The position numbers and the translations under genes are program-made. Under the pieces are notes generated by a model. That model was not told the DNA's origin, searched no databases, and worked only from the letters and a program-made list of their open reading frames with translations. 64,000 nucleotides of DNA, from contig OY282355.1 in assembly GCA_958295525.1 (NCBI GenBank), forward strand, positions 1 to 64,000, given 5' to 3'. The stretch comes from an uncultured Dehalococcoidia bacterium. Its GTDB lineage: Bacteria > Chloroflexota > Dehalococcoidia > Lucifugimonadales > Australimonadaceae. Positions 20,549 to 26,497 of this stretch are shown piece after piece (within the stretch, counting starts at the first letter, position 1; each line of letters begins with the position of its first letter).

Positions 20549-20605
20549 AGGCGACTTCCTTCCGCAGACAAGAGCGCAGACGGCGCGGCGCAAGCGCGGC
20601 GCAGA

Positions 20606-20641
20606 GCGCACGATAGCAGACGGGCGCACGATAGCAGACGG
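20606..20641. repeat. 18-bp tandem duplication
   Basis: GCGCACGATAGCAGACGG occurs twice head to tail (20606-20623, 20624-20641) upstream of the TPP-enzyme gene. It may be a local slip duplication or a regulator site; no gene is present. Confidence 0.7.
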
Positions 20642-20739
20642 AGCGGCGTTGCGCCATCGGGCGCCTGCTCGCGTTGCGTTGCGTAGGAGACGTTGCGCCC
20701 CCTCCCCTTGCCTTCGCCCTTCCTCCTCCTTCGCCCTGC

Positions 20740-20862
20740 CCGCGTAGGCGGGAATCCAGTCGGCGCGCAAGCGCCAAATTCCCCCCTGCCGTCATTCCCG
20801 CGTAGGCGGGAATCCCGCCCCTTGTTCCGTCATTCCCGCGAAGGCGGGAATCTCGCCCCCGC
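20740..20862. repeat. Three dispersed palindromic repeats
   Basis: Copies near 20740, 20791 and 20829 (cores with GTAG, GTAG and GAAG loops). They lie between the TPP-enzyme start and the 3' end of the propeller cluster. The region 20642-20739 shows nothing coding. Confidence 0.85.
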
Positions 20863-20868
20863 CCCCGC

Positions 20869-20949
20869 CTAGCAATCGGCGAGGGCGCGCAGACGGTGCA
20901 GGTCGTGCGCCGCCGCTGCCCGCATACACTGAATTGCGCTGATGCTCAT
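20869..20949 (-). pseudogene. Relic start of a third small lipoprotein gene
   Basis: An ATG overlapping the upstream propeller stop (ATGA, 20946-20949) opens a 26-codon frame, MSISAIQCMRAAAAHDLHRL to a stop at 20869. Its first codons match the start of the small lipoprotein at 22339 (MSIPIISILRTAAAAALLL), including the DNA string around GCGG-CAGCGGCGGCG. The lipobox and the conserved tail are gone. I read it as the truncated head of another lipoprotein-propeller module. Confidence 0.45.
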
Positions 20950-22142
20950 TGGGAAACCTCCGTCCATACGAATCCGCCGAACCCGTCGGGCAATGGCTTG
21001 GCCTTTGCCGCTATCCAAGGGACTCCTACTGCGTTACGATCATTTGACGTGTTGCGCTCCACGAGAACACGCTTGTCCGAGCCGTTGGCGTTCATCGTGA
21101 AAAGCCTCACGCCTGTAAGACTATCAGGAAGATACGCTGCGATTCTATCGCCGTTCGGAGACCAACCGGCTAGCGCCCCAGGCTCCGTGTCCATGATACG
21201 CAATTTCGATCCATCTGCGGCAACCTCCACGAAAGGATTTTGATGGCCGCGAATAGTAGACCCGTCTTCCGACCAAGACAGGCTTCCCCACGGAGCGTGC
21301 CAGCCGACAGTAGGCCCTATGCGCTCCGGCAGTATGCCGGGAAAGGACGCTATCTCTTCCAAACCTGTTCCGTCAGGTTTGATGGTGTGGATTGAAAGTA
21401 TGTTGTTTGTACTTCGCGCGAACGCGATGCGCTCGCCGTCGGGAGACCAAGCGGGCCGTGCGGCCGTTTCCGACAAACACCGGAGATTGGTTCCATCTGT
21501 GTTTACAGTGTAAATCATCTGAGTGTCTTCATCAGCAGCGACAAATGCAAGAGCATGCCCATCAGGCGACCATTCAGGAGGTATTAATCGTGTAGAAAAA
21601 GGTCTGCCTGCTGAACTGAAAACGAATTCATACGTAAGGCTTTCTATTTCGATTATAGCCAATTCGAACGAAACCGTAAGGAAAAGCGCAAGTTTTGAAC
21701 CATCTGGCGACCATATAGGCTGAACAGCGTTAAATGAAAAATCTTTCGTTATCTGATTCAATTCTTGCCCATCGAAGGAGGCGGTTTTTACTTCCAGTAA
21801 TGAAGACTTATTGTGAGCGAACGCGACTATTCCTTCTGGTGAAACGTCCATCGCATGGTTCAAAGATTTTGCATTTCTCTCGTCTATGGGAAAGGAAATC
21901 GAGCGTAAACGCACGCCACTGGCGTCGATAAAATGCAATGCTGCGTCCGCATTAAACGCAATGTGCGCTCCATCCGGACTCCACAAAGGATGCGCAGGGT
22001 ATTGCGCCGCTTTGATAGATCTTCCGGGATCGGAATATCCCCAACCGAACGAGAAATCTAAGTCGACCGTGACCCAAAACAACCAAATTACTGCCAGCGT
22101 CGCAAGCAACCCACCAATGAAAAGTCCTGCGCAGAACTTCAT
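20946..22142 (-). CDS. Membrane-anchored PD40/TolB-like beta-propeller protein (copy A)
   Basis: This 398-residue protein has one N-terminal membrane segment (LFIGGLLATLAVIWLFWVTV) followed by at least six WD40-like PD40 repeats, each with the signature W-S-P-D-G-x-x-I-A-F (PLWSPDGAHIAF, PIWSPDGSKLAL, PEWSPDGHALAF, PAWSPDGERIAF, LSWSEDGSTIR, AGWSPNGDRIAA). Such propellers are extracytoplasmic and bind peptides, glycans or partner proteins; a catalytic role is unlikely. Its start overlaps the stop of the small lipoprotein gene by 1 nt (TAATG). It is paralogous to the propeller at 22336-23646. Base composition is clearly poorer in GC than the surroundings. Confidence 0.8.
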   Translation of the reverse strand: MKFCAGLFIGGLLATLAVIWLFWVTVDLDFSFGWGYSDPGRSIKAAQYPAHPLWSPDGAHIAFNADAALHFIDASGVRLRSISFPIDERNAKSLNHAMDVSPEGIVAFAHNKSSLLEVKTASFDGQELNQITKDFSFNAVQPIWSPDGSKLALFLTVSFELAIIEIESLTYEFVFSSAGRPFSTRLIPPEWSPDGHALAFVAADEDTQMIYTVNTDGTNLRCLSETAARPAWSPDGERIAFARSTNNILSIHTIKPDGTGLEEIASFPGILPERIGPTVGWHAPWGSLSWSEDGSTIRGHQNPFVEVAADGSKLRIMDTEPGALAGWSPNGDRIAAYLPDSLTGVRLFTMNANGSDKRVLVERNTSNDRNAVGVPWIAAKAKPLPDGFGGFVWTEVSQ

Positions 22143-22339
22143 TAGTTAACACTCTGATACAGAGCATATATCGCCATTATGTCAAACAGGTGCGGTGAGC
22201 AATCCGCCTCCCCGCTTTCGCACGTCGGAGGCGGCTTGGGCGTGGGCGTCGGCGTAGGAGAGGCGCAAGCGAGCGCCGCCGCCAGCAGGAGCGCCGCCGC
22301 CGCCGCTGTCCGCAAGATTGAGATGATAGGTATGCTCAT
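22142..22339 (-). CDS. Small lipoprotein paired with propeller A
   Basis: This 65-residue protein has a signal AALLLAAALAC with lipobox Cys near 25, a short Pro/Thr spacer, and a conserved tail CESGEADCSPHLFDIMAIYA followed by LYQSVN. The tail is almost the same in the small protein at 23643 (CESGEPDCSPHPFDIMAIYA). Two Cys bracket six residues and could form a disulfide. It overlaps propeller B by 4 nt upstream and propeller A by 1 nt downstream, so the lipoprotein and propeller are made together. I do not recognise the family; a surface complex with the propeller is my inference. Confidence 0.7.
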   Translation of the reverse strand: MSIPIISILRTAAAAALLLAAALACASPTPTPTPKPPPTCESGEADCSPHLFDIMAIYALYQSVN

Positions 22340-23646
22340 CGTTCCGCCTTTGGGGAAGGATACGGCTCCCAGTCAAATCCGTCTATATCCAGGGGCCTGC
22401 GGTCGACCACGAATTCCTGCGCGTCGTTATCCCACCGGACAAGAGATTGCTTGTTCGATCCGTCGGGCGCCATCGTGAAGAGCCGGGTCGCGTGGCCGGG
22501 CAGATAGACCGCGATCTGGGACTCGTCGGGCGACCATGACGCGAGAGCATCCGGCCGGCCGCGCATAATGCGAAGGTTCGATCCGTCGGCGTTGACGACG
22601 ACGAACGGACTTTGATGCAGGTGAATTTCAGAACCATCGGACGACCACGAGACGTGCCCGCGGGGAAGTCGGTTGGGGCCGCCAAGGGGGTAGCTTATCC
22701 CTGTGCCTTTCAACTTCGGCAAGGCGTCAGGGAAAGAGGCTATCTCTCGCAAATTCGCTCCATTGGCTTTCACTGTGTATATTGTGGAAACGTTGTCTTT
22801 GTGCTCCACGAAGGCTATGCGGTTGTCGTCCGGCGACCAGGCGGGAATACTCGAAGTAGGCTGTATTTTTATGATGCTTGCATCACTGGAATCGGCAACT
22901 ACAATAAATGGACGTTCAGGAGTATCGACTTGAATCTCATTGCCGATAAACGCAATTTTCTTGCCGTCAAAAGACCAAGCCGGTGGATGATATTGGGCAA
23001 CTATATCAGATACGTAAGCATGGATGCCCGATCCATTTCGATCTGCTATATGGAGAAATAGGTACTGATCAGCCCGAACACCTGCGCCGATTCTGACGAA
23101 GTTGTCTTGAACTGTCGAATATACGGATTTATCCATGAGATATGCTATATGCTCCCCGCTGGGCGACCAGACAGGGTGATAAGCATTAAAGTGATAAACA
23201 TTATCGCCATCAATTCTCTGGTTAGCAGGTAGCAATTGATGATTCAAACCATCGACGTCAATGGTCGCAATTTGGAATCTACGGTCCGCTGTAATCCGCT
23301 CAAACGGATGATTGCGTTGAACCATAGCGATGGTTCCATCGGGCGACAAACTTGCTGCATATTCGAGCGAAAGCTCATGTGCAGGACGAAACGAGTTCAC
23401 GGAAGATGAATCTATCGCTACTGCATGCATGCGAAAACCGTCATTGAAAACCACTCGTTCTCCGTCCTTGCTCCACATAGGAGGCACAGGGTATTGGGCG
23501 AATCTAATTCCGCTGTATGCGTATCCAGGGTCATTTTTCCAACTGTAAAGCCCCTCAAAGCGGCCGCCAAGAATGTATAGGCCCCAAAGCAAGAGCCCCA
23601 CCACCACTATGCAGGTAAATGCTGCTAACCACATGCAGGTCTTCAT
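22336..23646 (-). CDS. Membrane-anchored PD40/TolB-like beta-propeller protein (copy B)
   Basis: This 436-residue protein has an N-terminal membrane segment (WLAAFTCIVVVGLLLWGLYI) and about seven PD40 blades (PMWSKDGERVVF, ASLSPDGTIAMV, PVWSPSGEHIAY, PAWSFDGKKIAF, PAWSPDDNRIAF, VSWSSDGSEIHL, ASWSPDESQIAV). It shares architecture and many blade positions with copy A (notably AQYP near the first blade and RLFTMAPDGSNK against RLFTMNANGSDK near the end), so the two arose by duplication. Both flanking small lipoprotein genes overlap it. GC is lower than in neighbouring genes, which may mean transfer or relaxed selection. Likely an envelope binding protein. Confidence 0.8.
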   Translation of the reverse strand: MKTCMWLAAFTCIVVVGLLLWGLYILGGRFEGLYSWKNDPGYAYSGIRFAQYPVPPMWSKDGERVVFNDGFRMHAVAIDSSSVNSFRPAHELSLEYAASLSPDGTIAMVQRNHPFERITADRRFQIATIDVDGLNHQLLPANQRIDGDNVYHFNAYHPVWSPSGEHIAYLMDKSVYSTVQDNFVRIGAGVRADQYLFLHIADRNGSGIHAYVSDIVAQYHPPAWSFDGKKIAFIGNEIQVDTPERPFIVVADSSDASIIKIQPTSSIPAWSPDDNRIAFVEHKDNVSTIYTVKANGANLREIASFPDALPKLKGTGISYPLGGPNRLPRGHVSWSSDGSEIHLHQSPFVVVNADGSNLRIMRGRPDALASWSPDESQIAVYLPGHATRLFTMAPDGSNKQSLVRWDNDAQEFVVDRRPLDIDGFDWEPYPSPKAER

Positions 23647-23924
23647 CGGTCCACCGTTTGGTATAACGCGTAAATTGCCATAATGTCGAACGGGTGCGGC
23701 GAGCAGTCAGGCTCCCCGCTTTCGCACGCCGTCCTTATGCGCCGAACCGCGCCAGCCGACTGATAGCGCGCGATGCGGGCTGCCCGCCGCTCCGCCTCCC
23801 CGCCGCCCTCTTGCGCCGACGCCGGGGCCGGGCCGACGATGAGGAGCAGCGCGCCCGCGAAGGCGCGCTCGCCGGCCAGCGCGGCGATTCCCGCAATCCG
23901 CTTCCGCATAAGGAGCGCGCTCAT
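23643..23924 (-). CDS. Small secreted protein/lipoprotein paired with propeller B
   Basis: From ATG 23924 this 93-residue frame reads MSALLMRKRIAGIAALAG, a hydrophobic segment GALLLIVGPAPASAQ (signal peptide with an A-S-A-Q cleavage site rather than a lipobox), then EAERRAARIARYQS and the conserved tail CESGEPDCSPHPFDIMAIYA. An in-frame ATG at 23909 is an alternative start. The tail is shared with the protein at 22142. It heads the four-gene run small B - propeller B - small A - propeller A, each overlapping the next. The family is not recognised. Confidence 0.65.
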   Translation of the reverse strand: MSALLMRKRIAGIAALAGERAFAGALLLIVGPAPASAQEGGGEAERRAARIARYQSAGAVRRIRTACESGEPDCSPHPFDIMAIYALYQTVDR

Positions 23925-24053
23925 AGCGCAACCATAGGCGTCGCGGCGGCGCAAGTCAATCGCGCGGGGCGGGGCGCAGCATCGTGGGCGCAGTAGAGGC
24001 GGGCGCGGGGCGCGGGTCGGGCGAGGCCCCCTTGCGCGGCTGGGCGCTTGGGG

Positions 24054-24059
24054 TAGAAT
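24054..24059 (+). promoter_or_regulatory. -10 box of the NYN gene
   Basis: TAGAAT 61 nt before the ATG at 24120, in the divergent region shared with the propeller cluster. No convincing -35 is seen. Confidence 0.35.
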
Positions 24060-24119
24060 ATGCCCAACTCTGAGAGCCTCGGCATGGAATCCGCCGGGCG
24101 AGTGAAGGAGAGTCGCAGT

Positions 24120-25767: not shown

Positions 25768-25812
25768 TTGACAAACCCCTAATGCATTGATAGAGTAGGG
25801 ATGCATTGGAGG
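25768..25812 (+). promoter_or_regulatory. Promoter, repeat operator and RBS of the AbrB/PIN pair
   Basis: TTGACA (25768-25773), a 17-nt spacer and TAGAGT (25791-25796) form the best sigma-70-type promoter in the window. ATGCATTG occurs twice, at 25782-25789 over the spacer and at 25801-25808 near the transcription start, 19 nt apart; ATGCAT is itself palindromic. This is a likely operator for antitoxin autoregulation. GGAGG at 25808-25812 is a strong RBS for the ATG at 25818. Confidence 0.75.
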
Positions 25813-25817
25813 CCGCT

Positions 25818-26087
25818 ATGATCAAGGAAGTCACCGTCGCCGTCACCCAGCGCAGCCAGGTCACCATTCCCGTGGACGCGCTGCGGGCGTTGGGCGTCAA
25901 GCCGCCCGGCAAGGTGGTGTTCGCCATCGAGGGCGGCGCCGTGCGCCTTGCCCCCGTCTCGTTCACCTTGGAATCGGCGTTCGGGTCCGTGAAGCCCGCC
26001 GAGCGCCCAACCGACTTCGACGCGCTCGTCCGCGCCGCGAAAGACGACAAGGCCGGGGAGACGATGCGGAAACTCCGCGCCGTATGA
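25818..26087 (+). CDS. AbrB/MazE-type antitoxin
   Basis: This 89-residue protein starts MIKEVTVAVTQRSQVTIPVD, the swapped-hairpin AbrB DNA-binding fold (VTQRSQVTIPVDALRALGVK, then PGKVVFAIEGGAVRLAPV). The C-terminal tail (residues 52-89) is the usual toxin-binding region. It binds its own promoter and neutralises the PIN toxin downstream, as in VapBC-type modules. Its stop overlaps the toxin start (ATGA, 4 nt). The start at 25818 is fixed by the GGAGG box; the in-frame ATG at 25806 lies before it. Confidence 0.88.
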   Translation: MIKEVTVAVTQRSQVTIPVDALRALGVKPPGKVVFAIEGGAVRLAPVSFTLESAFGSVKPAERPTDFDALVRAAKDDKAGETMRKLRAV

Positions 26088-26497
26088 GGTTCCTGGACAC
26101 CAACGTCATCCTGCGTTACCTGACCAACGACGACGAAGCGAAGGCGCGGAACTGCTACGAACTCTTCCAGCGCGCGCGGCGCGGAGAAGAAGACCTTTTC
26201 ACTTGCGAGGCCGTCGTCGCGGAGTGCGCCTACGTTCTCTCTTCGTCGCGCCTTCCCTACCGGCTGACGCACGAAGAGGTCAGGGCCCGCCTTATGCCCG
26301 TGCTCTCGCTACGGAGCGTCCATATCCATGAGAAGCGCGTCGCGCTGCGCGCGCTGGACGTCTACGCCGCCTACGAATTCCTCGATTTCGAAGACGCGCT
26401 CGCCGTAGCCCATATCGAGCGAGGGGACGCCGCGGACATCCTCAGTTACGACCGCGATTTTGATCGCGTCCCGGACGTGCGACGCGTCGAGCCGTGA
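26084..26497 (+). CDS. PIN-domain toxin (VapC-like)
   Basis: This 137-residue toxin has the full set of PIN acidic residues: MRFLDTNVILRYL (first Asp), VVAECAYVL (Glu), LDFEDALAVAHIER (Asp) and LSYDRDFDRVP (last Asp). VapC-type toxins cut RNA, often tRNA or rRNA, when their antitoxin is degraded. It overlaps the AbrB antitoxin by 4 nt, so production is coupled. Length and motif order are normal, and nothing indicates inactivation. Confidence 0.9.
   Translation: MRFLDTNVILRYLTNDDEAKARNCYELFQRARRGEEDLFTCEAVVAECAYVLSSSRLPYRLTHEEVRARLMPVLSLRSVHIHEKRVALRALDVYAAYEFLDFEDALAVAHIERGDAADILSYDRDFDRVPDVRRVEP

Follow-up and report, generated by a model that had tools for sequence, protein, structure and literature searches.

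Small genes overlapping PD40 propeller genes in a Dehalococcoidia genome read as retained ends of secreted metzincin proteases

What are the very small exported proteins whose genes run into those of PD40 propellers in an uncultured Dehalococcoidia bacterium, and what keeps them there? A sequence-only reading of the DNA analyzed here, a stretch of 64,000 nucleotides of contig OY282355.1 (hereafter the window), had described two overlapping pairs of a small gene and a PD40 gene together with a truncated third start, and all of these are present on the minus strand. Small gene A (23643..23924, minus strand, as are all features of the unit) encodes 93 amino acids, comprising a signal peptide, a spacer and a tail (23646-23726; CESGEPDCSPHPFDIMAIYALYQTVDR) that we assign below to the C-terminus of a metzincin. 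It overlaps the gene for propeller 1 (22336..23646; 436 aa, PD40/TolB-like, with an N-terminal signal/anchor helix) by the four nucleotides ATGA. The start of small gene B (22142..22339; 65 aa) in turn overlaps the stop codon of propeller 1; its product combines a lipoprotein-like signal, a TP-rich linker and a metzincin tail (22145-22222; CESGEADCSPHLFDIMAIYALYQSVN), and it is joined to propeller 2 (20946..22142; 398 aa, PD40/TolB-like) by the one-nucleotide overlap TAATG. A third small ORF (20869..20949), whose start overlaps the stop of propeller 2 by ATGA, consists of 26 codons (MSISAIQCMRAAAAHDLHRLRALADC, then stop) and lies within a 3′ constant end common to three loci of the genome. The differences between these loci are mostly nonsynonymous, as judged by eye, and the ORF looks like a relic, not a functional gene. 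At the other side, a 38-bp 5′ constant end (23922..23959) carries the promoter-like arrangement TTGACT-17-TATGGT. Directly behind the unit, positions 20739-20860 hold interspersed-repeat copies of the CGTCATTCCCGCG(T/A)AGGCGGGAATC type, and similar sequence recurs in other parts of the window as well as at both of the other loci. The window also contains AbrB-like and PIN-domain-like genes with a 4-nt overlap (25806-26497), named from sequence alone, which are probably a toxin-antitoxin pair.

Both larger proteins exceeded the cut-off of the Pfam family PD40 (PF07676; 20.9 bits) with 53.2 bits for propeller 1 and 56.6 bits for propeller 2, and both stayed below the NCBIfam TolB equivalog cut-off of 343.15 bits, with 58.3 and 121.8 bits, respectively. 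The predicted model of propeller 1 (pLDDT 75) matched S9-peptidase and TolB propellers in Foldseek. The proteins therefore resemble TolB/PD40 propeller lipoproteins in their PD40 repeats, their predicted export and their profile and structure matches. In contrast to TolB lipoproteins, they score far under the TolB cut-off and are predicted to be coupled with a protease or with its tail, and the propellers of some relatives carry added LRR-like sequence, which would be consistent with a role in recognition. The propeller genes have a GC content of 51-52 % (51.7 % for propeller 1) and a GC3 of 50-54 %, compared with 67 % GC for the window and a GC3 of about 89 % for three neighbouring genes. Small gene A and the relic are GC-rich, unlike the propellers between them.

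A search of the 2.51-Mb genome for the tail yielded exactly four matches (E 3e-7 to 7e-16), and there are likewise four propellers of the window type, each directly behind one of these tails. Hence, the similarity of the tails goes beyond chance, and the genome holds four pairs at three loci, namely the window, L005 (883.5-885 kb) and L006 (768.5-770 kb). The proposed coupling-type pairing, growing in copy number, also held: the -4/-1 overlaps of the ATGA and TAATG type are kept in all four copies, including copy F at L006, where the tail is eroded (AVSVLRQTEV) and the start codon has changed to GTG.

Simple tandem duplication, which the sequence-only reading had suggested, does not account for the growth in number. 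Propellers 1 and 2 are 36 % identical. In the tree, the four propellers form one clade (support 100/98), within which each window propeller has a copy at another locus as its sister; this tree and the saturated synonymous sites both led us to reject a recent tandem duplication as the source of propellers 1 and 2. Moreover, the cores are foreign in composition, and ends and cores have separate histories: the 5′ and 3′ ends of the three loci are near-identical, whereas the propeller cores are saturated. The 38-bp 5′ end is identical at all three loci except for one base and occurs nowhere else in the genome, and a search with its first 33 bp, allowing up to 3 mismatches, did not find it in five congeners.

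The origin of the small proteins is indicated by relatives from other families of the same order, in which large exported proteins carry the tail, EPDCSPHPFDxMAIYALYQ, at their end or close to it. These ORFs of 567-2039 aa contain HEAGHALGL...HPTIPDSVMNYD...EPDCSPHPFDVMAIYALYQ or a variant thereof; the order of motifs in intact relatives is HExxHxxG, a downstream His, the Met-turn and the tail. A profile built from the tails of the window genome recovers those of the relatives with E values down to 8e-17. The profile of the metzincin domain matches MMPs in the PDB (best MMP-13, E 5e-5), and Pfam M10 was matched by all six intact domains (best 2e-6), with none of the whole proteins reaching the M10 cut-off. 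Furthermore, a profile from HExxH to the tail aligns onto alkaline protease 1akl via the Met-turn (E 0.03) and places the tail in register with the closing helix of the serralysin, P..DDIAAIQKLYG. AlphaFold modelled the metzincin domain poorly (pLDDT 43), and with this model set aside, the assignment of the fold rests on sequence profiles. Intact relatives thus combine HExxH, a downstream His, the Met-turn (MNY) and the M10 profile, the latter with weak scores; in contrast to MMPs, a longer loop of variable length separates HExxHxxG from their third ligand candidate (HP), placing the latter farther away.

The tail is consequently the C-terminal helix with which the catalytic domain closes in a matrixin/serralysin-like metzincin that is secreted. 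The zinc motif HExxHxxG is absent from small proteins A and B and from the copies at L005 and L006, and the Met-turn is absent from the window small proteins; for small gene A, a motif check returned neither HExxH nor the Met-turn. What the window proteins share with the metzincins (PF00413, Peptidase_M10) is a tail homologous to the C-terminal helix of intact relatives; unlike these, they are devoid of any catalytic motif. Since the profile runs from HExxH over the Met-turn to the closing helix that forms the tail, the small genes are decapitated proteases, in which the last 20-27 residues are kept behind a signal peptide and a linker. Because their products lack the metzincin motifs and the propellers lie under the TolB cut-off, we filed the window proteins under neither family. 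The idea of an independent family of small exported proteins was accordingly rejected in view of the intact protease relatives and the profile alignments, and orphan small exported ORFs gain an origin as protease ends. The suggested C-x(6)-C tail motif survives in part, in that its second Cys is conserved and its first varies within the family. A C-terminal sorting tag of the PEP-CTERM type was likewise rejected, given that the tail is part of the catalytic domain and is internal in L061 and L068, where 93 and 49 residues follow it, respectively.

We then asked whether the tail is paired with a PD40 protein elsewhere, in a sample of 247 genomes of the order and 400 genomes of the phylum; the relatives are mostly metagenome assemblies, in which some frame breaks may be errors. 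In a first set of loci, an exported PD40 protein is encoded directly downstream of 30 of 41 tail ORFs, mostly overlapping the tail ORF or a few nucleotides away. The other 11 comprise the ORFs of L133-L136 and two ORFs of L058, which are followed by a different exported lipoprotein, L081 at a contig end, and L070, L074, L075 and L141, for which the profile detected no downstream PD40. In a second Chloroflexota class (families f74 and f85; its loci L167 and L175 are on the same contigs as L081 and L079 of the first set), a PD40 lipoprotein gene lies downstream of 25 of 29 tail genes, and the remaining four are located at the end of the sequence covered, so that pairing holds for 25 of the 25 tail genes whose downstream sequence is long enough, in most cases at -4 nt. 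A downstream start was present for 27 of the tail genes in this class, and 19 of these share 4 or 1 nt with it. Among all loci, gaps of +19 to +44 nt take the place of an overlap at L062, L069 and L170. The sequence-only reading had named small proteins without propellers as a refutation, and in distant members the tail indeed stands without this kind of propeller (L133-L136, with another exported lipoprotein, and L070, for which none was detected); within the main family, pairing of tail and propeller is the rule. In line with the claim that such a pairing had not been described, a search of the literature on metalloproteases and PD40 gave one PDZ-domain paper and no description of a metzincin-PD40 pair, and one on WD40 proteins of SAR202 in sponges yielded no paper. 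The putatively coupled pair extends across two Chloroflexota classes, including genomes titled SAR202 and Dehalococcoidia. The loci L133 (4254-8293), L134, L135 and L136 encode distant metzincins, one of them in a congener, followed by another family of exported lipoproteins (HIVVRGTYLPGTERC...), whose genes mostly overlap that of the metzincin by -4.

Decapitated units were found in several families, often beside intact pairs, and form tandem arrays; at L169, L170, L173 and L176 of the second class, genes reduced to the tail, each with a propeller of its own, stand behind intact pairs or in alternation with them. Some decapitated units (L057, L062, L065 and L064) have no signal peptide or obvious start, and export of the tail is therefore not universal. 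In the window genome, one unbroken alignment spans the signal peptide, linker and tail of copies B, E (L005) and F (L006). Together with the single propeller clade, this suggests that decapitation probably predates the divergence of these copies, an order that recombination of the 5′ ends makes uncertain.

The window unit itself is an insertion between the genes for a TPP enzyme and an NYN-domain protein, both conserved, which enclose a stretch at 20552..24118 (no strand assigned). In four congeners, the aligned parts of the TPP and NYN genes are about 180-240 bp apart, and a fifth, G002 (L155), has a different gene between them. The gap may be an insertion hotspot. By its sequence, the G002 gene reads like an exported substrate-binding lipoprotein.

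As to how such units move, no tRNA was found near the copies in the window, L005 and L006, and no recombinase among the ORFs around them, which were read by eye. A tRNA junction and a recombinase-like fragment, as of an integrative element, are present in relatives, where L062:3905-5990 and L069:4046-5970 carry a near-identical unit in G047 and G036, two genomes of different families. The tRNA genes beside it differ (Ala-TGC and Met-CAT), the unit starting in each case at the 3′ CCA end, and behind it lies an opposite-strand fragment that resembles the N-terminus of a serine recombinase (named by eye). This fragment also neighbours a tail at L070, and at L133, in a congener, a longer gene related to it lies next to the protease. 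The L062/L069 unit may be a small element that targets tRNA genes. In G054, a second copy (L058/L073) begins within about a codon of the tail start, with 95 % identity running into the propeller. Ends that are more similar than the diverged core between them recur among copies in G054, G426 and G134, although what stays constant on the 3′ side is, for some of these copies, the last blade or an LRR-like domain. The entity that is copied, moved and recombined is, as far as these boundaries indicate, the unit of tail plus propeller.

Such mobility could mean that the tails are mere pseudogene ends, with breakpoints falling in the conserved tail, and that coupling and peptide are irrelevant. The copied unit of G054 that begins at the tail would fit, as would the truncated 5′ end of the tRNA-adjacent copies, the frame-broken proteases upstream of some copies (e.g., L060, L063 and L066) and the decaying third relic of the window. 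However, nearly all copies retain frame and stop, signal peptides share the frame of the tail both in the window genome and at L140, from another family, and the tail is under selection, as described next. We therefore regard this explanation as improbable.

The units of the G134 array (L057) have their decapitation junction in common, close to the Met-turn (clearest for units 1-3), which implies that duplication followed decapitation. By a minimum-spanning count over few copies, the tail frame of this array accumulated 9 synonymous and 3 nonsynonymous changes, where about 36 nonsynonymous changes would be expected under neutrality (P 7e-5). Units 1-3 alone gave 4 synonymous and 1 nonsynonymous change (P 0.007), and the other two frames, serving as controls, displayed no such constraint. 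The tail copies of the window genome, counted likewise, differ by 20 synonymous and 11 nonsynonymous changes (P 2e-7), a constraint that could partly date from the intact-protease stage. In intact pairs of the other class, the tails are 90-100 % identical, compared with 54-73 % for the entire catalytic C-terminus and 51-62 % for the propeller core; the tail seems more constrained than its place in the protease fold alone predicts. These substitution patterns show that purifying selection at the protein level continues to act on the tail once the protease has been decapitated, and this conservation makes an interaction between tail and propeller plausible.

The selection bears on the alternative that the small ORF is kept just as a leader, providing a Shine-Dalgarno sequence and a stop for reinitiation at the propeller gene, and that its peptide has no function. 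Overlaps of 4 and 1 nt couple translation tightly (PMC6728339, PMC10666635), and in E. coli the last 15 nt of the upstream gene are enough (PMC10666635). The persistence of the overlaps in all four window-genome copies, in spite of the erosion and GTG start at L006, and the many decapitated units that retain the tail alone agree with this alternative. Coupling through about 15 nt would account for an in-frame remnant, yet it leaves about 20 conserved codons unexplained, and purifying selection acts at the protein level on tails of copies that arose after decapitation. On balance, a pure leader is rather unlikely.

We instead favor, with slightly more belief than doubt, an explanation that joins descent from a two-gene operon, loss of the protease, and a remnant acting as both coupling leader and docking tail. 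The ancestor would have been an operon in which the gene for a matrixin/serralysin-like, secreted metzincin preceded that for an exported PD40 propeller lipoprotein resembling TolB, with a 4-nt or 1-nt overlap. In the window genome, the body of the protease was lost in frame, leaving signal peptide, linker and the last 20-27 residues. The mini-gene would still be translated, and its stop would pass the ribosome to the propeller start by termination-reinitiation. The -4/-1 overlaps are those of known termination-reinitiation systems (PMC6728339, PMC10666635); unlike there, what stands upstream here is a remnant whose peptide is conserved, and coupling in the window unit is predicted from the overlaps. 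Since the amino acids of the tail are conserved after decapitation, the mini-protein, if exported as its signal peptide predicts, most likely also docks with its tail on the propeller, as the C-terminus of the protease may likewise do in intact pairs. If the propeller outlives the protease, and the last helix with it, the last helix is the likely contact. A SecM-like arrest peptide, suggested by an exported leader with a conserved C-terminal motif in front of a coupled gene, is a weak possibility, as the motif is already accounted for as a protease helix.

A reading compatible with this explanation is that the propeller is an immunity-like orphan partner, the inhibitor or anchor of the metzincin, kept against the proteases of neighbours. 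Nearly all intact pairs have the partner gene directly downstream, and arrays of fragment plus partner stand behind intact pairs (L173, L169). There is also precedent in Pseudomonas aeruginosa, where, according to PMC4334185, the product of the gene adjacent to that of the secreted metzincin Mep72, BamI, binds the protease in a complex and relieves its toxicity; by this analogy, a propeller acting as protease partner or inhibitor is reasonable. The likeness, drawn from the published description, lies in a secreted metzincin with an adjacent gene; in contrast to our loci, decapitated arrays are not mentioned in the abstract of that paper. Orphan cdiA-CT/cdiI and rhs-CT/rhsI modules (PMC3150448) offer a second precedent, being mobile arrays of a 5′-truncated fragment and a downstream partner beside an intact pair. 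Unlike in those modules, the fragment here carries no effector or toxin domain and consists of the last helix (about 20-27 residues of the protease), and the diverse member is the partner. The arrays of tail plus propeller thus look like orphan effector/immunity modules but retain another part of the effector. Against immunity, nothing toxic or catalytic is left in the retained fragment, the propeller core varies at least as much as the protease does, which suits recognition as much as inhibition, and the distant members L133-L136 have unrelated partner lipoproteins. We consider immunity as the reason for retention unlikely.

Finally, the tail coding sequence might serve both as the protease docking helix and as a recombination joint for variable propellers. 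Propellers would then be stored in decapitated arrays of tail plus propeller and swapped behind a protease or a mini-lipoprotein; such propeller switching seems doubtful to us. At L085:7238-11461 (G134), an exported protein of 1407 aa is encoded behind four units of tail plus propeller with a -4 overlap; it contains stretches that look like fibronectin, cadherin and LRR types, and in its N-terminal part it is similar to the proteases.
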